Source: Trissonchulus latispiculum (lineage: Eukaryota; Nematoda; Enoplea; Enoplida; Ironidae). From it: 64,000 nt of DNA. Location: NCBI GenBank assembly GCA_030248195.1, contig JASAND010013050.1:34832-98831 (forward strand), in the 5' to 3' direction. The notes under the pieces are model-generated. The model worked only from the letters and a program-made list of their open reading frames with translations, did no database searches and was not told the DNA's origin. Position numbers and translations under genes: made by a program. Below, piece by piece: positions 40,293-64,000 of this stretch (within the stretch, counting starts at the first letter, position 1; every line of letters starts with the position of its first letter).

Positions 40293-40448
40293 TCACAGTA
40301 AACTCGCACTTTAGTTTTTGTTTCGTAGGTGGCTACGGAAATAGGACGGCAGGATTTGACATGCGCACACTCATTTGAACCTCGGCATAGTTCTAATTAA
40401 ATCGTTTGTTCAGAGATTGTTTTATTGTGTCTAGCCGAAATCTCTACA
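40293..40448 (+). repeat. outer gypsy LTR, right copy
   Basis: From TCACAGTAAACTCGCAC to CGAAATCTCTACA. It matches 25037-25194 plus 37872-37896, with an internal deletion near 40312 relative to the left copy. The two LTRs are more diverged than those of the nested element, so the outer element is older. Confidence 0.8.
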
Positions 40449-40772
40449 CAAGAAACACTAGCGCCAGACAAAAATTAGGTACATTCAAAAGTTTGAGAAC
40501 TTAAATTGGGGGCTTTTGTTATCTTTGGTCCTAGTTCATTACACCCTTTCTATTTCGTGTTCATATTCAGTTCAGTTTTACAAGATTATAAACGTCAGAC
40601 TGCTGTACCTTTCCTTGGCTGTGCCCACCAAGAAACTAGGCAACAGTTGTCTTAACGAACCTACAAACACTACCCTAGAAAATGTTCAGCTGTGATTAGA
40701 GGTACCTCTCACCTTTAAATGTAGTGTATTTACGGGGAATTTCTGAAAAAGATTAAACACAACAGTATTGCC

Positions 40773-41738
40773 ATGAATTCATCTGAATCTAGTACCCAGT
40801 TTGACCCCTATGTTATAATTCTTGGCGTCTACTTTGTCGAAGGCATCCTTCAAGTTGGTTTCAATGCCATCCTGGTAGCAGTTGTCATGGTAACGCCTGT
40901 TCTCCGAGAAAAAGAGTTCGTCTTTCCAGCTGGTTTGGCAGTTGCAGATGGCATAACAGGAGCTGGGCAAATAGGGGCATCAGTTAATAGATATCTGATA
41001 GCACAAAGTGGAAGTAGTAGCAAATTGGTTCTATCCTCATACTGTAAAAGCCAAGCGCATACACTATTATTCCAGTGGGGTGCATATGCTTCATCATTGA
41101 TTGTATGCATGATATCGATAGACAGATTTATTGCATGCAGCAGCATTAAGGTTTATGCTAAAATTAGTCGGAAATATGCGTTGATTGCCACCGCTTCATG
41201 CTACATCTTAGCCACAATCAACGTAATGGTAAATGTCGTCGTAATGTCAACCAGTGAAGATCTGGTGTCAATATTTTGCTTTGCTGGAAGCAGCATGCCA
41301 CATTGGAGAAGCCAAATGCATCGGGGGTTTCAGATGTTGCTTTCCTACTGCAGTGTACTGATATACATTTCTGCTTTGATCATCTTAAAATGGAATTCGA
41401 AGACCCAATATTCGGATGTTTTAAAGAAAATGGTGGAAAGGCAGCGAAAAGTAAATAAGTCGCTACTACATTTGGGTACCTGCACATTTTGTTTCTTCTG
41501 TATACCTCTTACACTATCCGTGTTTATTGATGATATCGTCTACAATTTGACGGTAAAAAGGTATCTGGTTGGTACATTATTTTTTGTAATGAACATAAAT
41601 TCCTGTTACAACATTGTTTTGTACTATTTTAAAAACCGAGACTTTAGAAACTCACTGAAACACATAATTAATCCTTGGAAAAGCACAGCTGTTGTTTCCA
41701 TCAGTCAGTCACAATTTAAAGATAACAGACGTGCGTAA
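40773..41738 (+). CDS. rhodopsin-class G-protein-coupled receptor, single exon
   Basis: An intact 321-codon ORF from ATG at 40773. Seven hydrophobic spans lie near residues 13-38, 47-70, 98-120, 134-158, 186-206, 231-252 and 262-286. Class A landmarks: Asp59 in TM2 (AVAD), Cys91 before TM3 pairing with Cys169, DRF at 116-118 in place of DRY, and NSCYNIVLYYFKNRDFR at 276-292, equivalent to the NPxxY helix and helix 8 with Pro replaced by Ile. The short termini, lack of introns and divergent motifs recall nematode Srsx-type and other invertebrate orphan chemoreceptors, so a ligand cannot be given. It would sit in the plasma membrane and couple to G proteins. It is the only clearly intact host-like gene here. 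Confidence 0.85.
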   Translation: MNSSESSTQFDPYVIILGVYFVEGILQVGFNAILVAVVMVTPVLREKEFVFPAGLAVADGITGAGQIGASVNRYLIAQSGSSSKLVLSSYCKSQAHTLLFQWGAYASSLIVCMISIDRFIACSSIKVYAKISRKYALIATASCYILATINVMVNVVVMSTSEDLVSIFCFAGSSMPHWRSQMHRGFQMLLSYCSVLIYISALIILKWNSKTQYSDVLKKMVERQRKVNKSLLHLGTCTFCFFCIPLTLSVFIDDIVYNLTVKRYLVGTLFFVMNINSCYNIVLYYFKNRDFRNSLKHIINPWKSTAVVSISQSQFKDNRRA

Positions 41739-41814
41739 AAGAAATTTACAAATATCAAAATGCCAGGAGATAATCGACAGCAATTGCGAGCTTTTGTGGT
41801 TTCGCTTCGATTTA

Positions 41815-42429: not shown

Positions 42430-43062
42430 TTGTAAAAGTTACCAAAATCAGTATATAGCTACCCACGTTCAATGATCTCAGGGCATTTGAAAGACTTAGT
42501 CAAGCTGTTGTTTATTTTGCCTGGAACTGGATGGTTCTACAGAAGCAGGTTTATCAGCAACCATTTACAGTTAGGCGCCCTTACTAACTAAAACTTGTAG
42601 TTGAGCAATTAAAACACCCAATTTACCAATTAACAAATTCATCGTTTTATCTACAAGTTCGTTTGAAATTTTATTGGGCGGTAGCAGTATTTCATAACAT
42701 TTCTGTTGATTTTAGTTCTAAATTAGTGTGGAATATTTCGTATTCTTTCGTGAAAATCTTCATAAACGATAAAACAAATTCTAACCTTAGCTAATCGGGT
42801 AGTTTCTCACTATGGAGTTTGAATTCAAAAAAGTGTGGGTATTAGTGGAGTTGTCTTGTCAGTTAGGTGTTAGTTGGTTGAGCGATTTGGGCGGGATCCG
42901 TTAGTTTTTATGTGGTTAAGCTTAAGTTGGCAGCTGTGACTATTTCGAATCTCAATAGTTCATTCATTGTGCATATTTGGTTAATTTGTTGAGATTCAGT
43001 GTTTTGGAAGTGCGAAGATGTATATTTGAATTTGTTTAAGTGAAGTAAAAGTATCGTGTTTT
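42430..43062. other. gene-free stretch, may hold the 5' part of an LTR
   Basis: No gene is supported. The region directly precedes the first amplified LTR end and may include the U3 of that retroelement, but the second and third units do not contain it, so its limits cannot be set. Confidence 0.35.
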
Positions 43063-43204
43063 CCTAATTTTCTAGTTTTACTGTTTTGAGAGTAAGGCGC
43101 GAGGAGAAACTTACCTAGGCATACACTACCGAGCGAAGAACCTGCACATTTCTTTATTAACAGTTAATCTGACAGTACACTGAGCAACCACATTTCTACA
43201 AAAT

Positions 43205-43223
43205 TGGCGACCGTGTCATGCGG
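43205..43223 (+). promoter_or_regulatory. primer-binding site (tRNA-Arg-like), repeated at 44215
   Basis: TGGCGACCGTGTCATGCGG begins four bases after the LTR end. Its first 11 bases are identical to the site of the nested gypsy element, which points to the same tRNA acceptor. The same sequence recurs at 44215-44233 in the second unit. Confidence 0.7.
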
Positions 43224-43226
43224 TAA

Positions 43227-44077
43227 ATGCCTCTTTTTTCTCCTCCTAATACTCGCGCCAGATCAAAAGAACAAAAAGAAAAAGTTTTTCTTTTTGAAAA
43301 TTTGCCTGCTCATCAGGCACCTGAGGTAGACGAAGTTTCTGCAATGTCACAACCTGCCACGTCTGGATTGGGGGGCGGGGGAAATCTCCCCCAAACCGGT
43401 ACCAGTTTAGGTGTAGGGGGGACGCCGCGTCCAACGTTGACTGGGGTGGGTCGGGGTTCGCTCCGTCCCTCCCCAGTGGCCCCAACTCCCAGTTCGACTG
43501 TTGTGCATGTACAAACTTCGCAAAGTTCGGGGGTGGGCCGGGGGAAGTCCCCCGGGTCCCACTACTCAGCTCACCTGGGTCAGCCTGGGGCTGTGCCTGG
43601 GTCAAATGTCCAGTCTATTGGTGCGGGGGGGTACAGCGAAATGTTGCAGCAAACTTGGGGGGGACCGCTACTTGCGGTAACCGAACAGTCGCCTGCGCCA
43701 GCGGGGGGGGTCTCTCCCCCCCAGGGGTGGGTTCTGTCCCCCGGGAGTTTGAAGCGGCGGTCTCAGAATTTCAGGACAGATTTGATGGAATGGATCCGTC
43801 TACGGTCTGTCTCGCCCGGGAGACCACAGTTCAAAATTTGGGAGGGGCGGGCCCCCATCTGGTGTCGCGCTATGCTGTTTCTGTTCCGGCTCAAAATGTT
43901 GTTAGGAGGACTGATTATGTTGAAAATTCGGCCGAAACCTCTGTTCAAATGGTGGGGGGAGCGGCTCCCCAGTCAGTTTCTCGTTTCGCTTTGCCGGCAC
44001 CTTTGTCTGTCAATACGTGTGAGTCAGATTTTCCGGCTGGGAGGGCCCTTCCTCCGGGGGAAGGGGGCTTTGCCTAA
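43227..44077 (+). pseudogene. gag-like N-terminal ORF, unit 1
   Basis: ATG at 43227 soon after the primer-binding site. The first 155 codons are low-complexity Gly/Pro/Ser/Thr (PATSGLGGGGNLPQTGTS). The coding sense then appears to pass into another frame at a G8 tract near 43703 and continues as FEAAVSEFQDRFDGMDPSTV and NVVRRTDYVENSAETSVQ, ending at TAA at 44075-44077. It looks like the disordered N-terminal part of a retrotransposon Gag; the capsid core and zinc knuckle are missing. Homopolymer indels explain the frame changes. Confidence 0.6.
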
Positions 44078-44236
44078 TTTTCTAGTTTTACTGTTTTGAG
44101 AGTAAGGCGCGAGGAGAAACTTACCTAGGCATACACTACCGAGCGAAGAACCTGCACCTTTCTTTATTAACAGTTAATCTGACAGTACACTGAGCAACCA
44201 CATTTCTACAAAATTGGCGACCGTGTCATGCGGTAA

Positions 44237-45068
44237 ATGCCTCTTTTTTCTCCTCCTAATACTCGCGCCAGATCAAAAGAACAAAAAGAAAAAGTTTTTC
44301 TTTTTGAAAATTTGCCTGCTCATCAGGCACCTGAGGTAGACGAAGTTTCTGCAATGTCACAACCTGCCACGTCTGGATTGGGGGGCGGGGGAAATCTCCC
44401 CCAAACCGGTACCAGTTTAGGTGTAGGGGGGACGCCGCGTCCAACGTTGACTGGGGTGGGTCGGGGTTCGCTCCGCCCCTCCCCAGTGGCCCCAACTCCC
44501 AGTTCGACTGTTGTGCATGTCCAAACTTCGCAAAGTTCGGGGGTGGGCCGGGGGAAGTCCCCCGGGTCCCACTACTCAGCTCACCTGGGTCAGCCTGGGG
44601 CTGTGCCTGGGTCAAATGTCCAGTCTATTGGTGCGGGGGGGTACAGCGAAATGTTGCAGCAAACTTGGGGGGGACCGCTACTTGCGGTAACCGAACAGTC
44701 GCCTGCGCCAGCGGGGGGGGGGTCTCTCCCCCCCAGGGGTGGGTTCTGTCCCCCGGGAGTTTGAAGCGGCGGCCTCAGAATTTCAGGACAGATTTGATGG
44801 AATGGATCCGTCCACGGTCTGTCTCGCCCGGGAGACCACAGTTCAAAATCTGGTGTCGCGCTATGCTGTTTCTGTTCCGGCTCAAAATGTTGTTAGGAGG
44901 ACTGATTATGTTGAAAATTCGGCCGAAACCTCTGTTCAAATGGTGGGGGGAGCGGCTCCCCAGTCAGTTTCTCGTTTCGCTTTGCCGGCACCTTTGTCTG
45001 TCAATACGTGTGAGTCAGATTTTCCGGCTGGGAGGGCCCTTCCTCCGGGGGAAGGGGGCTTTGCCTAA
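44237..45068 (+). pseudogene. gag-like N-terminal ORF, unit 2
   Basis: Second copy of the ORF at 43227, nearly identical. Here the G tract at 44712 has ten G rather than eight, so the second part (from VPREFEAAASEFQ) lies in a third relative frame. A 24-bp deletion removes the segment around the NLGGAGPH block. It ends at 45068. Confidence 0.6.
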
Positions 45069-45201
45069 TTTTCTAGTTTTACTGTTTTGAGAGTAAGGCG
45101 CGAGGAGAAACTTACCTAGGCATACACTACCGAGCGAAGAACCTGCACCTTTCTTTATTAACAGTTAATCTGACAGTACACTGAGCAACCACATTTCTAC
45201 A

Positions 45202-49659: not shown

Positions 49660-52147
49660 AGTTAGTGTTTTCGTTTTCGAAAGTTTTGTTTCTCATCATA
49701 TGATTCTAAAATTTCATTTGAAAGTTGTCACCAGACAGCGTCGTAAGAACAAAAGATTTGCAACAGCATTCACTTGATGCAATTCTAAATTTACATTAAC
49801 CGGTTAATCTTTCGAAGGTTGAACATTTTTAGAAACGCCTCGACGCTAAGCATCTTACCCTTTTCTTTAAAATTAACAAGTTTTGTTTTAAACTAATCAA
49901 ATTGCGTATTTTGTTATTCAGACAAAATCTCTCTTAAATCGCATAAAAATAGTGTGCTGCCGGAAATACGGTTTTTTTAAAATGTGTCTAGTTTAATTCT
50001 GTACAAACCTTTGTATTCTAACAAACTGTGCACTGTGCACTGGGTTCAGTTTTGAACCGTTTATTTTCCCAAAATGCTTGGATCGTCAACACAAAGTCCC
50101 CTTAGGACATTTTGCTTAATTGAACCAATTATTTTTGGAGATTGGAGTATATATGTAAAGAAAAAGGTTTGGCTAATAGACTTTTGGTAGCTGAGAGATC
50201 ATTAAACAGACTCAATTTCTAACTTTTATTCAACTCAGCCCTTTCTATCACACAAGTTTGGGGGTCGGGCAAACTTGTTCCTTTAAAACAATTATTTGAG
50301 CACTGGTGAAATGGCTCTTTTCTCCTCAAGCTACTTAATAGTAAACTGATCGCTCACTAAACTTCGTGATCAGTTTACTATGATCCTTACCTAGTCAGAG
50401 CTTCCGTAACTAAAACAGTGGTCCACTCTGAGCCTCAAATCAAATCCTTAGTAATAGCCAACAAGATACCTGGTAATTCGAAATCTACATTTAATGTAAA
50501 CAGGGATAATCAAAGTACAATATTTTGTCCTCACGTTTCAACCAATTACAAAGATGAAAGTTACAAGTGGAGTTAAGGCAATCTAGATCACGAGACTCAA
50601 GGTTTTAGGTTCACGTTAACAATACTAAATAGCTCACAAACACAAACATAGAATCCGGCGGTAAATTTGCGTTCTATCCTCTTATGACCACTTTGGTTTC
50701 AACCCTTGAAACTTTACCTTTACCTTTAGAAATGTGTAATCCAAATGTAGAAACAGATATCACAAATAAGATCCACTGGGGAATTGCACGAAAGACTAAA
50801 CAGGTGAGATGGGGTGACCAACAAACAGCAACAGACTTCAGCTTTAACCACAACAATAACTTCTAGGCTCAACAGGCCAACAACTGACGACACAGACCAG
50901 GCGTATCAGCCCACAAAAAGTATATCCAGACCGAAGGTTCTCAACACAACCTTACTCGAGCGAAGTCAACCCCAAACTGAAGTCTTTAGGTCAGTCACCC
51001 AATCCCGTCACAGCTCTGTCCACGTGCAATTCTCCCTTCTTCGGTCTCTTTGAAATTCCTTTTAAGTTTTGCGTGACTATTGAAAGAAAGATCCATACGT
51101 CATGATAAGCATGACGTATGCGTTTGCTCAAGGGCTCATGGGGTTCCCCAAATCTTCGTTTAAAGCCGATTAACCCCATCCCTTGAATTTGAACCCATAA
51201 ATCGGAAAACACACCAATTAACGTAGCAATCCAAGCAAACAGAAACGTGCAATTAACAAAGACATTTCTACTATTTTTCTACCACTTCTAAACTATACAA
51301 GGTTCCGAGAAAAAGGTTAGCCTGTCAGACATTACACAAGAGGCCTATACAATTCAAGTCGAACATTGAACATCAAGGGTTAATACACAGAGAATTAGTT
51401 GAACGCACAATTAGATTAGAGTTAGTTAATGCTAGCACACGTACATATTCTACAAATCAGTTCGAACTTCACACAGATTCATACAGAGTCAAGAGTTTGA
51501 AACACAGGAAGTCAATACAGAAGAAATATTATCATCATGCAGCATTCAACACAAAAATTCTAGCTTGTTTTTTAGCTTGATTTAGTCCAAAACCCACATT
51601 CTCTAGACATCTCTAAACAAAGCTCAAAATCTTCCTATTACACTCTCCACCGCAAAAAATGGTACAAAGTTACACTAGGGGTGTGGATTATCAAGACAAG
51701 GAGGTAAGTAGCAGTAATTAGATAAAATAGAATAGTTATCGAAACACGAATACAGGCAGAGAAGATTAGGGTACAGGTGTGGTACATGCAGTGCAGTGAG
51801 AACAGTAAATTTACAATCAGTCAAAAGGGGACAAGCATAATAAGTAGTGCAAAAGCAATGGCATTAGTCAAGACAGTATAATACAAACGATGCAGTGCAT
51901 GTATAGTGGCAGTTCAATAGTCAATCGATGATCAGGATCAAAAATAGGCTTCACCGGTGGAAATAAGATCAGCAGTTCGTGCAGCAGCCAGAATAGAGTC
52001 TATGGCCGAGTCTTCGGAGGGCTGGTGACGATTCCAGCAGGGAGGCAACCAGGAGACTGTGGGGCGGACCGCGTGTGCTGGGAATACACAGGCGCGGCAG
52101 GACTGACGATTCGATGATATGTGGGGGTGTTTTAGCAGTTCTCTGGA
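49660..52147. other. gene-free stretch with hairpins
   Basis: No supported gene. 49743-49840 is an inverted copy of about 45840-45934. Two perfect inverted repeats are present: TAGTAAACTGATC at 50339-50351 with its complement at 50368-50380, and CATACGTCATG at 51094-51104 with its complement at 51110-51120. ORFs here are short and without domains. Part of the region may be the 3' LTR of the element at 53.6-64 kb. Confidence 0.5.
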
Positions 52148-53603: not shown

Positions 53604-54302
53604 TTAAAAGTCAACAGCAAGGAGATCATGCGGAAGTAGGGGATGCGCACGATGCGCATTAGCAAGCAAAGAATAGATCCGGGGGGCAGAATGCTGCAGA
53701 AAAGTTCTGCCACGCCCCCGGAAACCAGGCAACTCATGCAAAATGATCACAGACTCACTCATGCAGAGACGATTGGGACAAACCAGATTAGCAGGGCGCA
53801 ACTGCTCAGCATGCTTCAAAAGTAGGGCCTTAGTGGGGAAGAAATCAAACTGTAACTGAAGGGGAACGGGAAAGAAACGGAAAGGAACAGAATAGTACGA
53901 AAACTTAAAGCGCCAGAAACAGTGAACACAAAGAGCGACACAGCATGACACCACCTCAGGACCTAACAAACTAACGGGGGAATACGGACGAAGAATACCT
54001 GCAGACGCAGGTCCACAGTAAACCTTTCCTGTATGATAGCAGATCTTGATCTCCGGCGGCAGACAGGCGGATTCGCACAGAGGACCTTTCTGTGCCTCAG
54101 ACAGGAGCCACTCTCCTTCGGGACCAGGGAAATGGAGAAACCGATGAATCAGAGGACGGGGAACCGGCAGATCACCAGAATCAGAAGAATCAGAAGGGAA
54201 CTGGATCTCAGGCTCAACAGAAGTGTCAGAGGAGGAGGTTTGGGAACTGGAGGATTCGCTGGAGAAATGACGGACGATCCAGGTAGAAACACGCTCAGCC
54301 AT
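53604..54302 (-). CDS. accessory protein B of the OTU-gypsy element (unknown function)
   Basis: An intact 232-codon ORF from ATG at 54302. The first 55 residues are Ser/Asp/Glu-rich; a hydrophobic and aromatic domain follows. Conserved with the neighbouring ORF at 54477-55103 are CVALCVHCFWR (versus CTFLCVECWWR), SYYSVPFRFFP (SYFGVPITLFP), the CPNRLC pair (CPNIKC), LHELPG (LHEIDG) and a C-terminal PHDLLAVDF (PHDVLDF). The CxxC plus CPN..C cysteines could bind one zinc ion. No signal peptide is evident. I know no family with this pattern. Its position after pol on the same strand suggests a retrovirus-like accessory gene, probably expressed from spliced RNA. Confidence 0.6.
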   Translation of the reverse strand: MAERVSTWIVRHFSSESSSSQTSSSDTSVEPEIQFPSDSSDSGDLPVPRPLIHRFLHFPGPEGEWLLSEAQKGPLCESACLPPEIKICYHTGKVYCGPASAGILRPYSPVSLLGPEVVSCCVALCVHCFWRFKFSYYSVPFRFFPVPLQLQFDFFPTKALLLKHAEQLRPANLVCPNRLCMSESVIILHELPGFRGRGRTFLQHSAPRIYSLLANAHRAHPLLPHDLLAVDF

Positions 54303-54476: not shown

Positions 54477-55103
54477 TTAAAGAACATTAGGATGATAGAC
54501 AGGACATTCACGGGACATGCGCATGCGAAAATCAAGAACATCATGCGGAATAACATCATGCAGAACATAGGGCATACGGGCAAGCAACAACTTAGCTTCA
54601 TCACACAACAATTGCATTCCATTAGTGTAATACCACCCATCAATTTCATGCAAAAATACAACATACGGAGACTGACATTTAATGTTAGGACAACGGTACA
54701 TCCCACCACCAGAAGAGGGGACAAGCTGGCGCAACCTCAGTTTTAGGGGATCTCGGGACAAACGGACATCATCATGCAACGGAAATAAAGTAATGGGGAC
54801 ACCAAAATAACTCAACGCAGTACGCCACCAGCACTCAACGCAAAGAAATGTGCAAACTTGTGCCAAAAGGGGACTTTGCAAATGAAGTCGACAGTTAATT
54901 TTAAAAAGACTAGCCATACGAGGATCTGTGTAAACATCTACCGTTCCAGGTAGCATTTTCAAGCCGTCAGGAAGTGCGTTTGGTTCACGATAGGGCCCCT
55001 GCATTTCAACGGGACAATCCATTCCTAGGGGTTCACTTTCAACGTCATCACCCTCAACTTTATCGACTGACGGAAAAACATCAACGATCAACTTTGGAGC
55101 CAT
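54477..55103 (-). CDS. accessory protein A of the OTU-gypsy element (unknown function)
   Basis: An intact 208-codon ORF from ATG at 55103. The N-terminal 60 residues are acidic and Pro-rich. The rest is the same domain as in the ORF at 53604-54302: CTFLCVECWWR, SYFGVPITLFPLHDD, CPNIKC, YVVFLHEIDGWYY, and PHDVLDF near the end. Identity to its paralog is low, but the order and spacing of Cys, Trp and His-containing motifs are kept, which argues for an ancient duplication with both copies functional. It starts about 1.1 kb after the polyprotein stop. Function unknown. Antagonism of a host factor, as for retroviral accessory proteins, is only an inference from position. Confidence 0.6.
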   Translation of the reverse strand: MAPKLIVDVFPSVDKVEGDDVESEPLGMDCPVEMQGPYREPNALPDGLKMLPGTVDVYTDPRMASLFKINCRLHLQSPLLAQVCTFLCVECWWRTALSYFGVPITLFPLHDDVRLSRDPLKLRLRQLVPSSGGGMYRCPNIKCQSPYVVFLHEIDGWYYTNGMQLLCDEAKLLLARMPYVLHDVIPHDVLDFRMRMSRECPVYHPNVL

Positions 55104-56215: not shown

Positions 56216-59200
56216 TCACTCAGACGAGCGCTGATCCTTAATTGGATCTGAAGCGGTTCGCGTTAGTCGCTGCGAACGACGAAAAGGGTTCTGAAATAGC
56301 GGCGAAGGGCCCGAGAATAGAGGGCTATTCGCAAACAATTTCTTAACATCTGCAGGTGGAGGAGTCCTATCAGATGCTTCAGGTGGGGAGGACTGTCGCG
56401 AAGAACTGCTAGTCAACTCAAGGGTGCTAATTTTGGGATCCTTGCCTGTAGGCCATTTGCCATGGAGGGGTTCCCTTACTGACAGCACTACCATGAAGTG
56501 ATCGCTATTGAGGTTATAGAGATAAAGAATGCAGCGCTCATACTCTTGTTCTTTTCCGAGAAGAGCTTCGGGTGTAAAAAGTTGCCAAGCCCATTCCTTC
56601 CCAAATTTAGAGTAAGACATTATTGGGGTGTGCAACCAAGCTGCGGCCAGAAATAACTCATCATCTGTAGCGAATTCTGCAGCTTTCTGCAATCGTTTCT
56701 TGGTTTCCTTCATATCAGTGAACATATTCTTAAACCGTTTCTTATGCTCATAGGTACAGAGAAATTCATACAGATCCTGCCGAATATCAGCCCAAGAATC
56801 TTCTAAACCTGTTAGAGCAAGGGAGAGTGCACGATAATAGCAATTTCCATCCCCTAATACGTCTATTACCTCATATGGTTCGTATAGCGGCATGTGCTGC
56901 ATCAAAACAGGTAAGCGGTGACGAACCCGGAAACCCCGAAGTGCAGCCATTCTTTGTTGCCACCTTTCGTCGATAGGGTTAAAGAATTTGCGTCTATTAT
57001 AGTATAGAGGATCCTGTTGTTGCGAAAGTGACTCATCTGACAGGTATTGCGGCGCGTCGCTATCCTCGCTTGCAGAATGATCACTCAGTACCCTAAGCTG
57101 TGGTCCCTTCCCTTTCTGTTGAGTTGGGGAAAGCGGAACCCTTTTCCCAGAAGTTGAGGCCACCTTTGGGCGCTCGTCGGGTGGGGGTTCTAGCTGCTGT
57201 GCACTCTTTCGTCTGGAGGCACGCGTCTGCGGTGCAGGTCTGTTCTCCTGCTCCTTTTGACGGTCAACAGCAGGCCTAGTAGCCTTTTTGCTTTCTGCTT
57301 GAACGGGAGGGGGAGTCGGCTTTTTAGCAGTAACTAGTTTCTTTGGAACCGAAGGTTCCGGCGTTTCAGAATTGGATTCCTGGTCCTCATCGTGTTCATG
57401 AATAGGTGCCGTAATTACCCGGGGTTCAACACATGGAAGCATGTTATTGAACTGGATGTTAACCCGCTTGGCGCGGCGGTTCCCTGCCGGGTACACAGTA
57501 GCTACACATCCAAAAATTTTCTCTATTCTATATGGGCCGGTTCTCTTATCGAGCAATTTATAAACTTGATCACGCTTAGCAACGTTAGACGCCTTGATCA
57601 GAACTAAATCTCCCACCTGATAATTTGGCTCTACTGCTCTCTTGTTGTACTGCTCATCCTGTACCTCACGGGCGGCGGCAGCTTTTTCACGGGCCAGTGA
57701 CCAAGCCAGTTGTATAGCCTCAGTGGCCTCCCGAACATAGTCAAAACCAGAATATTTGCGGTCAGTGGGGATCGACACGTTAGTGGCACTGGGTAGGACT
57801 GGATCCCAGGCGTGCAACAGGTAATGCGGTGTCTCCCCGGTGGTAGCGTTTATGGAGGTGTTGTAGGCAAATTGACAAAACGGGACCATGTTGTCCCATT
57901 CTAGGTGGTTTTCGGAAACCGTAGCTAACATATCTAATAGCGTTCTATGCCAACGCTCAATCTGTCCGTTAGCGGCGGGGTGGTACTTGGTAGTTTCAAG
58001 TTTCCGTGTCTGAACAAGTGCACAAATTTCCTTATTCAGAATTGCCACAAATTCCTTACCCTGATCCGAAATTAGAGTTTTGGGTGATCCGTATTGCAAA
58101 ATGATAAACTCAAGAAAAGTTTGAGCCACCGTATAGGCAGTTTTGTTCTTGATGGGTATAGCAATAACATATTTAGAGAATGCGTCAATGAAACTAAGAA
58201 CATGTTTCATCCCACTTTTAGAAGTTTTAGAAATATCCATCAAGTCACAATGCACGCGCTCAAATGGCTCTAAAGCCAGCGGAGGATGTCGCAGCAGGGC
58301 TCGAGGATTTCGAGGAGGCCCTTTCCGCCTTTGACACCGTGGACAGGATTGAATCCAATTTTTGACATCAGTACGCATTCCGGGCCACCAAAAGTGCTCG
58401 GCTAGCCGATAGAAAGTTTTGTTTTGACCGCCATGCGCAGCATATGGGCTGTCATGACACGCGGCTAATGCCTCCTCTTTGAGGACTTCCGGCACGGCCA
58501 AAACCTCCAGTGTGGTGTTGCGCATACGCTCCAAGTGCACTAGGACTCCTTCACGCAGGTCGCATTGCTCAGCGAGAGCAGCGATCCGTACAGCCCTATT
58601 GAAGTTACTCGGCAATCGATGAGTTTGTTTGTACGTCATAATCTCCCCGAGGAGCAAATCATCTTGCTGCAATTCTTGCAGTTTGCTCCAGGATTTGGGA
58701 TTCAAAATTACGTTCGAGTTATCACGGACAGCGACTTCAAAAACGTCTCCGAAGTTGGCGCTAAGTCTACCCTTACGTTTCCGTCGGCCGGTTTCGGTCG
58801 ATTTGAATTCAGCACGCAGCGGTTCACTCTCAGTGGACTCACTGTTCCCTGCCATCTTTTGAGGAAGGGGCGAGTCAGATTCAGACTCGAGCGAGGTCTG
58901 GTGAGATTCTGCATCCTGATCAGATTCCAGTAGCTCTGGCCCAGGGGGCAGACGCGGTTGCTTCTTAGGAGTCGGCTCGCTGTGCTCAGACTCGTCTGAT
59001 CCGGAGGCTTGCGAAATTTTGGAAACTTTAGATCGCAGGGCGGACGTGCTCTTGCGGGCTCGATTTCGCGAAATTATCGGTGCGATTTCGTCGCGTGTAG
59101 GTGTGCGGTCCCTCTTGATCACTACCGAGTTTATATGCGCTACAAACTCTTCGCTTTCCTCCTGGTGCAAAGGTACACCGTTGCGTTCGCTATCGCCTGT

Positions 59201-62200
59201 ATTCCCCTTAACTCCGCGTGCGATGTCAGCAAAGAGTGGGTTGCGGGATAGTCCGTCCGCATTTCGCAGTTGGGGGTTATTTCGGTGTTTTATCTCGAAA
59301 TCATACTCAGAAAAGGTCATCTGCCAGCGGGCTAGTCGCGAATTTCGAGGGGGGTGCTTCATAAGCCACCGTAAGGCGGAATGATCGGTAAACAAAGTGA
59401 ATGGGGGCCCCCCGTACAAATAGTGCCTGAAATGTTCGATGCCAAACTTCATAGCCAAACACTCCTTGTCATGTGTTGAATAATTTCGCTCGTATTTCTT
59501 CAGGGAGCGGGCCGCGTAGGCGACGGGATGATATTTTCCGTCATCCTGCTCCTGAGACAACACTGCTCCTAACCCCAAGTCTGACGCGTCAGTATGAAGG
59601 ACAAAACCCTTGGCTAGGTCGGGGTGTGACAACACGGGAGCTTCCACTAAGCTTTTCTTGAGCAATTCGAAAGCCTGCTGGTGAGTGTTATTCCAAACGA
59701 ATCGTACCCCCTTCTTTTTGAGCGAATAGAGGGGAGCGGCAAGGTGGGCGAATCCCTTAATGAATTTCGCATAGTACGCGCACATGCCTAAAAAACTTTC
59801 CACATCCTTAATATTTTTGGGGACGGCTAAATCGTGAATGGCCTGAATCCTTTCCTTTAGTGGCTCGACCCCCTGTTCAGAGATGATATGCCCCAGATAG
59901 GTAACAGATTTCTTTAAAAAGTGGCACTTTTCCGGGTTCATTTTAAGGTCAGCAGCACGTAATCGGTCAAAAACTTCTTGCATTATCTCGAGGTGTTCCT
60001 CAAAAGTTTTAGAAAAAATAAGAATGTCATCAATATAGATGATACACTTTTTCCACTGAAGATCCCCGAGAATGCGCTCCATGCATCGCTGAAAATTTCC
60101 GGGCGCGCATTTCAACCCGAAGGGCAAAACATTATACTCAAATTGTCCATGAAAGGTGTTAAAACTGGCCTTAGCTTTAGATTCCTCGTCCAGCTCAATT
60201 TGGTTAAACCCCTTGCTCAAGTCAATAGTGGAAAAGAATTTTGATCCTTTCAGTGAGGTCATAATATCATCTATCCTAGGTATAGGATAGACATCGGGAT
60301 CACTGATTTTGTTTACCTTGCGAAAATCAACACACAGGCGCAATTTTCCCCCAGGCTTCGGAACATAGATCATGGGAGAACTCCAGGGGCTAGTGGATGG
60401 ACGAATTAAGCCATACTTTAGCATTTCCGTCAGTTCCTCTAAAAGCGGCTGTCTAAGGTGTACCGGGAGTCGGTAAGGTGTAGCATAGATGGGCTTAGCT
60501 TCTCCCGTGTTAATATGAGCGCGAAAAATAGTACACTTTCCTATATCGAAAGGATGCTGAGAGAAACAACTTTGGTTTGCATTCAACAATCCCAAAAACT
60601 GCCCCGTTTCTGAATCAGATAAAGTACTTTGATCAAAGGAGATTTTTTGCATTGGCTCAGAAAGATCGGTGAAAGCACATGGTCGGATACTCTTGAACGC
60701 CTTCACTTGGTGAGAAAACCTCTCTATGGCTCGAGTGAGTTTATTCCGGAAATGATTCCCCAACCGGATAGTTTCCCCATGTTCATCGCGCAACTTTGCA
60801 TAGGGAGAGGTTCCCTTTTCGGATCCTAATTCCCGCCTAGGTACTACATTCCCGAGAGTGGTGTTCTCGTAGATAGTATGATCTTGGCCGGTCTCGTTTC
60901 TCATAAGCACAGGTATGTGCTGTCGGCTCAAGTTTACCAAAGCAGGCAAAACTTGCAAATTCGGCTGACCGAGCTCGAATTTGGTATTTTCTGGCTCGAA
61001 AATTCCCTCATAGTTTATCGGCTGCATACTCTCAATTAAGGCTGGTACTGCCACCTCTGCATAGGCAGGTATTACCACCTTCCGCATGGCAGAGACTCTA
61101 AAGGCGGTTTCCGTCAGAGGGGCGTGTTGTATTAATTTTGCCGTCATAAGCGGATGCGTGGCCTTTTTCAACTGAAACTCGCCCTTTTGAAAGTTTAACG
61201 CCATTTCACCACCATGCGCTAGGATAAAATCGGTTCCAATGAGACAATCCTCAGCTAGTCCCTTAGGGACCAAGAACGTATGCATGATTTTCACCCCGGG
61301 TGTGTCATAAAACCCAACAGGCACTCGCACTGCGCCCCGAAATTTTAAAGTTTGTCCGTTAATTCCCTCAGCCCGTGGGGTGTGTGACAGTGGTAACAGC
61401 GGTAGTTTCAACGTGCGTACCAAATCCTCACTCATCAGACTTAAGTTTGCCCCTGTATCTACCAAGGCCTGTATAGGCTGCTCACCTATGTCTACTAGGA
61501 TCATGGGCAAGGGTCGATGGGGTACGGAGACGGCATTGTGGTCCTGTTCCCGTGGGTGTTTTCCATGCGGCATCCCTCCGACCAGGTTTAACCCTCGTAC
61601 CCGCTGTGTGTCGGGCGTCTGAAAAGGTAGAGTGATCCGAGTACCTTCCGGAGTTGGCCAGGTTATCGTATGTTGTCCTAAATCTAGAGAAATTTCCCCC
61701 GGGAAGGTGATCATATAGTCTGATCCGATAATACACTCAACAGTTAAATTATCGACTACTAAGAATTGCCATTTCCTATTCGGCATTTGCCGTTCAGCTC
61801 CTTGAAAGAAAACTGGCGCGGTGACTACACCGGCAACCGTGCATCGTTCCCCATTGGCCGTCCGTATATACTGGGCAGGATCAGCTGCTTCCAAGCGAAG
61901 TCCTAGTCGTCTAACTAAACCCGAGGACATGGCCGAAACCAATGCTCCCGTGTCGAAAAGTGCCTGAACCGGTTGTCCTAAAATCATAAGGCTAATTAAG
62001 AGTGGTACCGTGCGAACCATCAGAACCGAATGTGCGTTGACGGGTCTACGGAAGTTGCGGGAGGAAGCCCGTGCAGGAGCACCACCACCTTGCGGGTCCA
62101 TTTCCACCACCTGCGGTCCTTTGGCTTTTCCTGGCCTTTTAAATGGGCTCGTGGCAGCGTCGGAATGCTCAGTACTAGTCCTACCCTTAATGCGATCGTC

Positions 62201-64000
62201 CTCTGAATCAGTATTTTCTTTGGTATCCTGCCGGGAAAACCTGACTATCCGACAGTCGCTACCTCTACGGTTCCCTATATGTAGGTCTATCAGAGGGGAG
62301 GTGCGGCTATCCTGGCTATCATCGGTTAGTAGCTGAGCACTTGCCTCCAAGTCAGCGCAATAATCGGACATGGATGAGGCAATCGAGGTATCCCGTGCCA
62401 AAGGGCGATATCCCGGTGTAGCCTGACAACGATTGGCTGCTGCCTTTCGTACCCTGTCTAATGATTCATTAACGGGCGGAGCCTTTGAGCGGAGAGGTAT
62501 GGTTTCCTCCTCCGGAGATACAGATCCTAACTCAACGGTCGGCTCATCATCGTCGCTGAACACCGGCTCGTTAACCCGACGTGCATCCATGGGAGCTGAA
62601 ATCTTAGGTCGCAGTGGCGGTGGACTTGGTCTAGGTTTCCTACGCACTCTGTCGCGGAATTTCCGCCCACAAGGGGTAACCCACCAGACGATTACACAAC
62701 CAATCAAGATAATTATAATTACTATGGTCAGACCGTGGTTTAGCTGTAAGGGAATTAAGGGTAGGTGCACATATTTTCGCATCTGATTATGTATCAAGTT
62801 GCGTGCCTGTTCATTTTCATATTCAGCAGTAGAAAGTTCTGTGAAGTGTAACGGGATCCGGCCCAAAGGCGCCGGGACTACAATTTCACGTAATTCTGCA
62901 GTTGTCACTGTAGTTCGAGCAATTCCTAGTGTGCTGGTCAGAATAGTGTTGCCGATAATCAAGTGGAGATATTGTCCATGCTCGAACCAGAGAGTGCCAG
63001 TGCCTGGCACAGCTACTCGCTCGCCCTCAGCAACATGATTCAGGGCCGGTGAACGTGCGACAATAACTTCTGTGTAATTTGTGCGGATCAGCACCCCAGC
63101 AGGGGTGGTACGATAAACTGTCGAATTGTCCAAAACTTTAACTTGAACATACTCTGCACAGCTAGCATACTCCCTTTTTAAGGCCTCATCCGAAAATGAA
63201 ATCAAAATTTGCAAGCATTTAGCCTTCAAACTAGTAACAATAGCGTTTGGTGGGCAGAACCAAAGACCGGGAGCTGTCTTACACTCAGAGACATCTATCT
63301 CCCTCACTTCTCCCGTATCCAACCGCTGAGCGTAGTCAGGCATGGGTGCTAGCGCAGTGATGCCCCGTTCCCGAGAATTATACCCAACGTTGTGAACCGC
63401 GTACAATGGACGCACCTCTTGTTCTATTGGGACAGGCACTTCTAACATAAAGCCAAATCGTAGAGTCTCGAAATCAATTTTGATGGGATAGACTTTCCCG
63501 AACTGATACACCAAACTGGGCTCCTGTGACAGTAGCGAATTCCGCAGTGAGGGGTGATTTCGTATGATTTCTTTCAAAGTTTGTAGATTTACCAAACTAG
63601 GTGTGATTTCCGAACGGAGTCCTGCGTGCATTACCGAATTCAGTCCGTCCCTCAGGGACGAGGTGAAGATATGGGCCAGCAACTGCATGTAAATTTGCCT
63701 CATGTACGAGAAATTTGAACACCTAGCCCGAATTATTAAAGTGGTTAGATCCTGTACCGTATGATGTAGGAATGCATAGATTTCTTCGTTTGCGTGCACA
63801 ATTTTCTTGACCGAGTCAGTAATTTTAAGCTGCTCTTCTCGTAAAGTATGAAAGCCCTGCTCAACATATTGCACTTTTCGTTCGAGCTTACCCATATGAT
63901 TGGTATTGGCTAAACTATTGGCAATTCCCCCTATTCCCAGGGCTCCGGCCAGTAGAAATTCAATAAAACGTTTTGGACGTGGATGCGAATTTTCAGACAT
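56216..64000 (-). CDS. Env-PR-PR-RT-RH-IN-OTU polyprotein of a retrovirus-like gypsy element (partial)
   Basis: One open frame of 2594 codons runs off the window at 64000, so the true start is unseen. Residues 8-11 (RPKR) are a furin-type site, followed by a Gly/Ala-rich fusion-peptide-like segment (12-32), a heptad-like helix (36-68), a Cys-containing ectodomain, a transmembrane segment (424-441) and a basic anchor: an F/Env-type C-terminal subunit. After a charged linker come two retropepsin domains (DTG at 683-685 and 848-850). RT has D1260 and YIDD 1322-1325; RNase H has D1471, E1513, D1539 and D1582. Integrase has H1849, H1856, C1886, C1889 and D1919, D1979, E2015, then a GPYRI domain (2155). 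An OTU domain spans about 2376-2515 with DGNC (Cys2387) and HF (His2501). No break is present. Internal ATGs, for example at residues 471 and 634, could allow separate pol expression. Confidence 0.9.
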   Translation of the reverse strand: MSENSHPRPKRFIEFLLAGALGIGGIANSLANTNHMGKLERKVQYVEQGFHTLREEQLKITDSVKKIVHANEEIYAFLHHTVQDLTTLIIRARCSNFSYMRQIYMQLLAHIFTSSLRDGLNSVMHAGLRSEITPSLVNLQTLKEIIRNHPSLRNSLLSQEPSLVYQFGKVYPIKIDFETLRFGFMLEVPVPIEQEVRPLYAVHNVGYNSRERGITALAPMPDYAQRLDTGEVREIDVSECKTAPGLWFCPPNAIVTSLKAKCLQILISFSDEALKREYASCAEYVQVKVLDNSTVYRTTPAGVLIRTNYTEVIVARSPALNHVAEGERVAVPGTGTLWFEHGQYLHLIIGNTILTSTLGIARTTVTTAELREIVVPAPLGRIPLHFTELSTAEYENEQARNLIHNQMRKYVHLPLIPLQLNHGLTIVIIIILIGCVIVWWVTPCGRKFRDRVRRKPRPSPPPLRPKISAPMDARRVNEPVFSDDDEPTVELGSVSPEEETIPLRSKAPPVNESLDRVRKAAANRCQATPGYRPLARDTSIASSMSDYCADLEASAQLLTDDSQDSRTSPLIDLHIGNRRGSDCRIVRFSRQDTKENTDSEDDRIKGRTSTEHSDAATSPFKRPGKAKGPQVVEMDPQGGGAPARASSRNFRRPVNAHSVLMVRTVPLLISLMILGQPVQALFDTGALVSAMSSGLVRRLGLRLEAADPAQYIRTANGERCTVAGVVTAPVFFQGAERQMPNRKWQFLVVDNLTVECIIGSDYMITFPGEISLDLGQHTITWPTPEGTRITLPFQTPDTQRVRGLNLVGGMPHGKHPREQDHNAVSVPHRPLPMILVDIGEQPIQALVDTGANLSLMSEDLVRTLKLPLLPLSHTPRAEGINGQTLKFRGAVRVPVGFYDTPGVKIMHTFLVPKGLAEDCLIGTDFILAHGGEMALNFQKGEFQLKKATHPLMTAKLIQHAPLTETAFRVSAMRKVVIPAYAEVAVPALIESMQPINYEGIFEPENTKFELGQPNLQVLPALVNLSRQHIPVLMRNETGQDHTIYENTTLGNVVPRRELGSEKGTSPYAKLRDEHGETIRLGNHFRNKLTRAIERFSHQVKAFKSIRPCAFTDLSEPMQKISFDQSTLSDSETGQFLGLLNANQSCFSQHPFDIGKCTIFRAHINTGEAKPIYATPYRLPVHLRQPLLEELTEMLKYGLIRPSTSPWSSPMIYVPKPGGKLRLCVDFRKVNKISDPDVYPIPRIDDIMTSLKGSKFFSTIDLSKGFNQIELDEESKAKASFNTFHGQFEYNVLPFGLKCAPGNFQRCMERILGDLQWKKCIIYIDDILIFSKTFEEHLEIMQEVFDRLRAADLKMNPEKCHFLKKSVTYLGHIISEQGVEPLKERIQAIHDLAVPKNIKDVESFLGMCAYYAKFIKGFAHLAAPLYSLKKKGVRFVWNNTHQQAFELLKKSLVEAPVLSHPDLAKGFVLHTDASDLGLGAVLSQEQDDGKYHPVAYAARSLKKYERNYSTHDKECLAMKFGIEHFRHYLYGGPPFTLFTDHSALRWLMKHPPRNSRLARWQMTFSEYDFEIKHRNNPQLRNADGLSRNPLFADIARGVKGNTGDSERNGVPLHQEESEEFVAHINSVVIKRDRTPTRDEIAPIISRNRARKSTSALRSKVSKISQASGSDESEHSEPTPKKQPRLPPGPELLESDQDAESHQTSLESESDSPLPQKMAGNSESTESEPLRAEFKSTETGRRKRKGRLSANFGDVFEVAVRDNSNVILNPKSWSKLQELQQDDLLLGEIMTYKQTHRLPSNFNRAVRIAALAEQCDLREGVLVHLERMRNTTLEVLAVPEVLKEEALAACHDSPYAAHGGQNKTFYRLAEHFWWPGMRTDVKNWIQSCPRCQRRKGPPRNPRALLRHPPLALEPFERVHCDLMDISKTSKSGMKHVLSFIDAFSKYVIAIPIKNKTAYTVAQTFLEFIILQYGSPKTLISDQGKEFVAILNKEICALVQTRKLETTKYHPAANGQIERWHRTLLDMLATVSENHLEWDNMVPFCQFAYNTSINATTGETPHYLLHAWDPVLPSATNVSIPTDRKYSGFDYVREATEAIQLAWSLAREKAAAAREVQDEQYNKRAVEPNYQVGDLVLIKASNVAKRDQVYKLLDKRTGPYRIEKIFGCVATVYPAGNRRAKRVNIQFNNMLPCVEPRVITAPIHEHDEDQESNSETPEPSVPKKLVTAKKPTPPPVQAESKKATRPAVDRQKEQENRPAPQTRASRRKSAQQLEPPPDERPKVASTSGKRVPLSPTQQKGKGPQLRVLSDHSASEDSDAPQYLSDESLSQQQDPLYYNRRKFFNPIDERWQQRMAALRGFRVRHRLPVLMQHMPLYEPYEVIDVLGDGNCYYRALSLALTGLEDSWADIRQDLYEFLCTYEHKKRFKNMFTDMKETKKRLQKAAEFATDDELFLAAAWLHTPIMSYSKFGKEWAWQLFTPEALLGKEQEYERCILYLYNLNSDHFMVVLSVREPLHGKWPTGKDPKISTLELTSSSSRQSSPPEASDRTPPPADVKKLFANSPLFSGPSPLFQNPFRRSQRLTRTASDPIKDQRSSE

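Follow-up and report, generated by a model that had tools for sequence, protein, structure and literature searches.

A gypsy-type integrase joined to a cysteine protease is known from the Ginger1 DNA transposons (Bao et al. 2010, PMC2836005); these use the integrase as their transposase and carry an OTU or Ulp1 cysteine protease at its C-terminus, after an H2C2 zinc domain, a DDE core and a GPY motif. The element described here lies in a 64,000-nucleotide stretch of the genome of the nematode Trissonchulus latispiculum (contig JASAND010013050.1, positions 34,832 to 98,831; hereafter the window) and has the same succession of H2C2, DDE core, GPY and C-terminal OTU. Ginger1 elements, however, are DNA transposons bounded by terminal inverted repeats, whereas the window element has a reverse transcriptase (RT), a protease (PR) and direct long terminal repeats (LTRs). 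With the errantivirus-like, env-bearing Ty3/gypsy elements it shares the order PR, RT, RNase H, integrase (IN), the LTRs, a Gag with a CCHC motif in related copies, and an Env-like region with a furin-like site and a transmembrane segment. It differs from them in that the Env-like region stands upstream of the protease in the same frame and that Pol ends with an OTU domain. In env-bearing gypsy elements the usual place of env is downstream of pol.

On the minus strand, which carries all features of the element, the window holds a frame of 2594 residues without a stop (64000 to 56216), which is still open where the window, and with it the contig, ends. It runs in the order Env-like, PR, PR, RT, RNase H, IN, OTU, with Gag missing because the 5' part lies beyond the contig end; Pfam searches on five pieces place RT, RNase H, H2C2 and the integrase core all upstream of the OTU in this frame. 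A preliminary description of the locus had claimed that the frame continues past the integrase into an OTU-type cysteine protease with Cys2387 and His2501, and had proposed a profile search, a search for other copies and a structure prediction. The residue numbers fit the minus-strand frame, as DGNCYYRA begins at residue 2384 and NSDHFMVV at residue 2498, and the identification as an OTU-type protease at the C-terminus of a Ty3/gypsy-type Pol is borne out by sequence, predicted fold, recurrence and selection. The two outcomes that the description had named as refuting it, a lack of any significant OTU match and a lack of further copies with the OTU behind the integrase in frame, are both contradicted by the results below. 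The domain spans residues 2371-2509 (56474-56890, the part aligned to OTUD3) and was recognised by PF02338, a PDB profile match, an AlphaFold model and structural alignment. The PF02338 match has an E-value of 4.6e-7 and a score of 30.8 bits against a cut-off of 23.3, and all 14 members of alignment A1 match the same profile at E<=0.01. The AlphaFold model has the OTU fold with a pTM of 0.82, and the 50 structural matches listed are all OTU domains, at 8-21% identity. The solved sequences and folds nearest to it include domains of the nairovirus type; these and the human OTUD1, OTUD3 and OTUD5 share the fold and the catalytic Cys region with the window's domain but are cellular or RNA-virus proteins, not parts of a retroelement.

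The catalytic Cys in DGNC and the His near the C-terminus are invariant in A1. In addition, Asp, Cys, the Glu of AT(D/E)xE and His do not vary in any of the 21 full-length OTU rows, representing 19 different copies, a count that omits the Ginger1-like rows as well as L027 and L028, in which the OTU is broken. The domain is thus modelled as an OTU-fold cysteine protease with Asp2384 (codon 56849-56851), Cys2387 (56840-56842) and His2501 (56498-56500) as predicted catalytic residues, placed by motif and alignment, and it is presumably a ubiquitin or ubiquitin-like hydrolase. A chance motif was considered and rejected, as profile, fold and selection argue otherwise.

Whole-genome searches covered 733.8 Mb in 21732 contigs. 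With PF02338, 136 of the 150 places scored (the best 150 of 316 candidates) gave a match; the top matches are other than the window element, L001 looking like a host OTU gene and L002-L005 being Ginger1-like or unassigned. With the window's own OTU, every one of the 150 places scored (the best 150 of 519 candidates) matches, the window included, and by our count 36 of them lie in open frames of more than 3000 residues, the longest reaching 3396. Twenty copies were chosen by hand with an eye to frame length and variety, and all 20 have the integrase ahead of the OTU within one frame. Shorter frames were sampled by taking every tenth row of the 150 matches, 15 rows counted by hand, six of which have frames below 1000 residues; in all five of these examined (C439 was omitted) integrase sequence directly precedes the OTU, with the frame broken somewhere there. 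Six further relatives of the integrase were also picked. Two (C16813 and C7053) have an in-frame OTU, with profile E-values of 5e-74 and 1e-66, so that the arrangement recurs in the hand-picked copies and in two more families; in the other four (C11562, C14537, C20827 and C19664) the frame closes 28-83 residues into the 1.5-kb piece taken from the integrase end, and no OTU is found there. An assembly artefact joining a host OTU gene to the element was rejected, the 19 full-length copies lying on different contigs. One copy stands apart: on C14027 (L026, L047) an open frame of 2507 residues has an integrase that has lost conserved residues of the catalytic region and a Gag without a CCHC match, and its OTU keeps Asp, Cys and His; judged from its sequence, this copy is perhaps decaying, or perhaps kept for something besides integration.

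Selection was estimated by Nei-Gojobori counts in 20 pairs of copies, synonymous saturation leaving no dN/dS in four pairs for the OTU and for the integrase and in three for the linker between them. For the OTU, dN/dS is 0.00-0.07 in the 16 computable pairs, over dS values of 0.02 to 0.9 plus 2.26 in one near-saturated pair; the integrase gives 0.00-0.01 in 16 pairs, and the linker 0.00-0.18 in 17, above the OTU value in most pairs. Four pairs among L013-L016 have no amino-acid difference at all in the OTU: dS is 0.32 in L013-L015 and L014-L015, and the other two pairs have only two synonymous changes. In some pairs dS shifts sharply from integrase to OTU (0.152 and then 0.019 in L013-L014), which suggests recombination between copies. 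The OTU is under very strong purifying selection in the copies compared, and the element therefore very likely uses it.

Upstream of the OTU come a linker of low conservation (approximately 56981-57430, from alignment A2), the GPY motif (near 57538, by alignment) and the integrase region (58004-58495), in which Pfam places the rve catalytic core at 58004-58270 and the H2C2 zinc domain at 58322-58495. RNase H (59303-59620) and RT (59882-60364) follow within 59303-60364, also by Pfam, and then two aspartic-protease domains (61208-61510 and 61715-61993), each with a DTGA motif. This tandem occupies 61208-61993; a single DTGA motif was seen by eye in the sister copy L052. The succession PR, RT, RNase H, IN with H2C2 and GPY is that of Ty3/gypsy. 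The first 520 residues of the frame have no Pfam match over the cut-off; sequence and hydropathy reveal there an Env-like region (62678-64000) in which an RPKR furin-like site is closely followed by a hydrophobic stretch, with a transmembrane segment spanning residues 423-441 (62678-62734). Over 417 aligned positions it is 35% identical to the corresponding region of the database protein P0117, a single chain of 2540 residues with CCHC fingers, Env-like region, PR, RT, RNase H and IN, the OTU being absent from the chain. This likeness places Env between Gag and Pol in the window's lineage, and the order Gag-Env-Pol, with the Env-like region between Gag and protease in one frame, is found in P0117 and in the two subfamilies examined (L034, L052). 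P0057 also has an Env-like region ahead of PR. The latter is a pol labelled in the database as a Nitrospirales metagenome-assembled genome; it matches the window's RT region at 69% identity and is probably animal contamination of a bacterial bin.

The 5' pieces examined start with Gag, which in the window copy falls off the contig; a CCHC zinc knuckle is present in six of the seven examined (of 15), L047 being without. One copy, on C12481, was measured end to end: it is about 18.1 kb long with a frame of 3393 residues, and its LTRs (5' 40316-41800, 3' 56951-58398; about 1.5 kb each) both have the form TG...CA. They differ by 39 substitutions in 1431 aligned columns, 26 of which fall in the ragged opening 230 columns of the alignment; a clear target-site duplication was not seen by eye. 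Shorter flanks, used in an earlier look at 15 copies, had revealed no LTR pair, the element being longer than had been assumed. The window copy holds the 3' LTR only (50154-51642, TG...CA, by match to those of the C12481 copy). Of this env-bearing Ty3/gypsy-type LTR retroelement the window thus contains approximately three quarters, counted from the 3' end, and the single large frame of the full element runs Gag-Env-PR-RT-RNaseH-IN-OTU.

Between pol and the LTR lie two accessory open reading frames (ORFs), of 208 residues (54477-55103) and 232 residues (53604-54302), which resemble each other by eye. Neither has a Pfam match over the cut-off, and ORFs like them occur in related copies, including the window's sister subfamilies. 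Copies of the sister branch carry, 3' of the frame that ends with the OTU, a separate ORF with a NADAR domain (PF08719), 490-530 residues long in L011, L012 and L019. It exceeds the Pfam cut-off in L011 (345-1934, minus strand; E 8.8e-12) and L012 (3938-5512, plus strand; E 3.6e-11), is partial and below the cut-off in L010 (834-1946, minus strand), and was seen by eye also in L009, L017, L018 and L019; among the copies tested, it is absent from L022, of the window's own branch. NADAR domains are abundant in this genome, with 2478 first-look candidates and a match at all 150 places scored; these score 124-150 bits, far above the 27-46 bits of the NADARs of OTU elements. One lies just outside the window on the same contig (C8861, 27846-28283). 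An Ectocarpus Gypsy lineage has been described with NADAR at the N-terminus of Pol, and NADAR also in the oyster Tx1 (PMC12477816). The Ectocarpus lineage, too, is a gypsy lineage with an unusual enzyme domain, like the sister subfamilies here with their NADAR ORF; there NADAR sits inside Pol, whereas here it forms a separate ORF 3' of pol. Elsewhere, the window contains a seven-transmembrane receptor gene (40770-41735) that matches Srsx (PF10320, E 1.3e-11) and the rhodopsin family (PF00001, E 1.5e-11) about equally, and a tandem duplication at 43059-45201, about 1.1 kb long with 97.5% identity. Srsx is a nematode chemoreceptor family, so the receptor gene points to a likely nematode host.

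The origin of the integrase-OTU pairing was approached with an integrase tree of 28 rows. For the database rows of the trees, 22 were hand-picked from the RT-relative and integrase-OTU searches; P0083 and P0121 were omitted as too short a match, P0011, P0113 and P0124 after the first tree and P0132, P0136 and P0194 after the second, all dropped rows being long, partial or removed to shorten the tree. The nine OTU-bearing retroelement integrases form one clade (support 99/98), with P0117 as its sister (100/99). In a smaller first tree the single origin of the OTU carriers had a support of 64/19, which became 99/98 after two OTU families and four OTU-less relatives were added, and these four OTU-less relatives of the genome lie elsewhere in the tree. 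A separate OTU gene may lie further 3' of the P0117 frame, whose contig is 8305 bases long. The genome also contains a Ginger1-like transposon (C18420; L053, L005) with integrase core, GPY, OTU and inverted repeats on both sides; related OTU pieces lie at L002-L004. One partial Ginger1-like integrase of the genome, on a long branch, groups with P0122 and P0125 and not with the window's (97/98; 99/96 in an earlier tree). The idea that OTU and integrase were taken as one unit from the genome's Ginger1-like transposon was set aside as unlikely, since the integrase trees place the transposon elsewhere. Either the joining of an OTU to a gypsy-type integrase thus happened two or more times, or an OTU passed from one such integrase to another; the integrase trees accommodate both. 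The OTU tree, with two Ginger1-like rows as its sole outsiders, cannot test a shared origin of the two retroelement OTU branches.

The preliminary description had known of no Ty3/gypsy lineage with an OTU at the end of Pol. The pairing of an integrase with a C-terminal OTU is already on record for Ginger1 (PMC2836005); what is new here is that an LTR retroelement has it. A literature search found no OTU-bearing LTR element, and among the papers listed the Ginger1 paper is the sole one to pair an OTU with a gypsy-type integrase, subscription papers and Repbase being outside its scope. The word OTU is absent from the main text of PMC12477816 and of a paper on C. elegans Cer1 (PMC10309623). Four other literature matches proved unrelated, OTU standing for a taxonomic unit in PMC2577118 and PMC2774666 and an unrelated gene being meant in PMC10216681 and PMC11943222. 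A search for the gag-env-pol order together with an LTR retrotransposon and envelope returned nothing. A protein search with the window's OTU part gave no match at E<=0.001 among 2101 candidates, restricted to proteins of 0.55-1.75 times 2594 residues, and searches of viral contigs gave none. Among genome contigs, the search picked up four weak loci, in records with bacterial names. The integrase-OTU alignment produced 144 matches among 7999 scored candidates, PF02338 being found in none of the 120 listed; it was likewise found in none of the 120 listed of 1393 RT relatives. These negatives carry little weight because known Ginger1 OTU proteins did not appear among the matches listed either. 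Tentatively, and at odds slightly short of even, the elements may be regarded as a clade of animal (probably nematode) endogenous retrovirus-like elements whose Pol ends in their own deubiquitinase, packaged with the integrase: the first such case in a reverse-transcribing element, with a Gag-Env-Pol layout and, in a sister branch, a NADAR enzyme as well.

This raises the question as to what the OTU does for the element. The preferred reading, to which a probability of about 0.5 is given, is that of a deubiquitinase made with the integrase and protecting the element's own proteins. In such a scheme, the OTU, hydrolysing ubiquitin or a ubiquitin-like protein and translated as part of the polyprotein that includes the integrase, would enter particles with Pol; it would then accompany the integrase, or be freed at the variable linker by the element's aspartic protease, and strip ubiquitin from the integrase, Gag or the integration complex, so that these element proteins would escape proteasomal turnover before and during integration. 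Several points weigh against it. Protection is read from the fusion to the integrase; the pairs used for dN/dS share sequences and are not independent, two of the 16 OTU pairs resting on two synonymous changes; and the frame breaks inside the OTU in two of the 20 picked copies (L027, L028). Furthermore, the OTUs of the two retroelement branches stand no nearer to each other (25-29% identity) than to the Ginger1-like OTU (21-32%), and OTU branches are far longer than integrase branches. This low identity and these long branches may reflect a shifted target or specificity, or replacement of the OTU within the clade.

The same divergence between sister clades, often seen in counter-defence proteins, would suit an OTU aimed at host defence, which, delivered by particles or made early, would strip ubiquitin from host restriction or signalling proteins. 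Nairovirus OTUs, which are among its nearest solved relatives, act in this way on host proteins in animals, and the Env-like region and accessory ORFs give the element a retrovirus-like look. Within each clade, however, the OTU protein is nearly invariant (the dN/dS values above), with no sign of a current arms race, and it is fused to the integrase rather than free; this role, second in likelihood to protection of element proteins, appears rather unlikely. Cutting of the polyprotein of the element itself, say at the junction of integrase and linker, in the manner of viral papain-like proteases, would be in keeping with a cysteine-protease fold within a long polyprotein and with an LxGG-like site (residue 806) between the two aspartic-protease domains. 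It is nevertheless improbable, because the frame already has two aspartic proteases, LxGG motifs are not clearly above chance (2 observed against 0.7 in shuffles; LRGG zero), and P0117, with the same Gag-Env-Pol layout, does without an OTU in its frame. Of the three roles put forward in the preliminary description, cutting is accordingly the weakest, and removal of ubiquitin from element or host proteins would fit better. Quite as doubtful is a role in which the OTU would act mainly by binding ubiquitin or a ubiquitin-like protein, guiding the integrase to chromatin so marked, with proteolysis only a secondary activity: fusions of gypsy integrases with chromatin-reader domains are on record (PMC12477816), but a pure reader would not need the predicted catalytic residues, which are invariant in the rows counted. 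As to a passenger, an old capture without present use, the two broken copies would agree with it. Domain captures are also common in mobile elements in general. Such a passenger is barely credible, as the dN/dS values of the 16 computable pairs largely refute it and none of the 19 full-length copies counted shows a change at Asp, Cys or His.

Ubiquitin bears on the fate of integrases and capsids, and host ligases and deubiquitinases are exploited by retroviruses. An element that brings its own OTU would, if the reading of a deubiquitinase protecting element proteins is true, provide a self-contained test case, requiring a single enzyme and a single point mutation, for the part played by ubiquitin in integration. 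The pairing of a gypsy-type integrase with an OTU both in Ginger1 and in the element described here hints that it may be integrase-type recombination, and not reverse transcription, that benefits from the local removal of ubiquitin.
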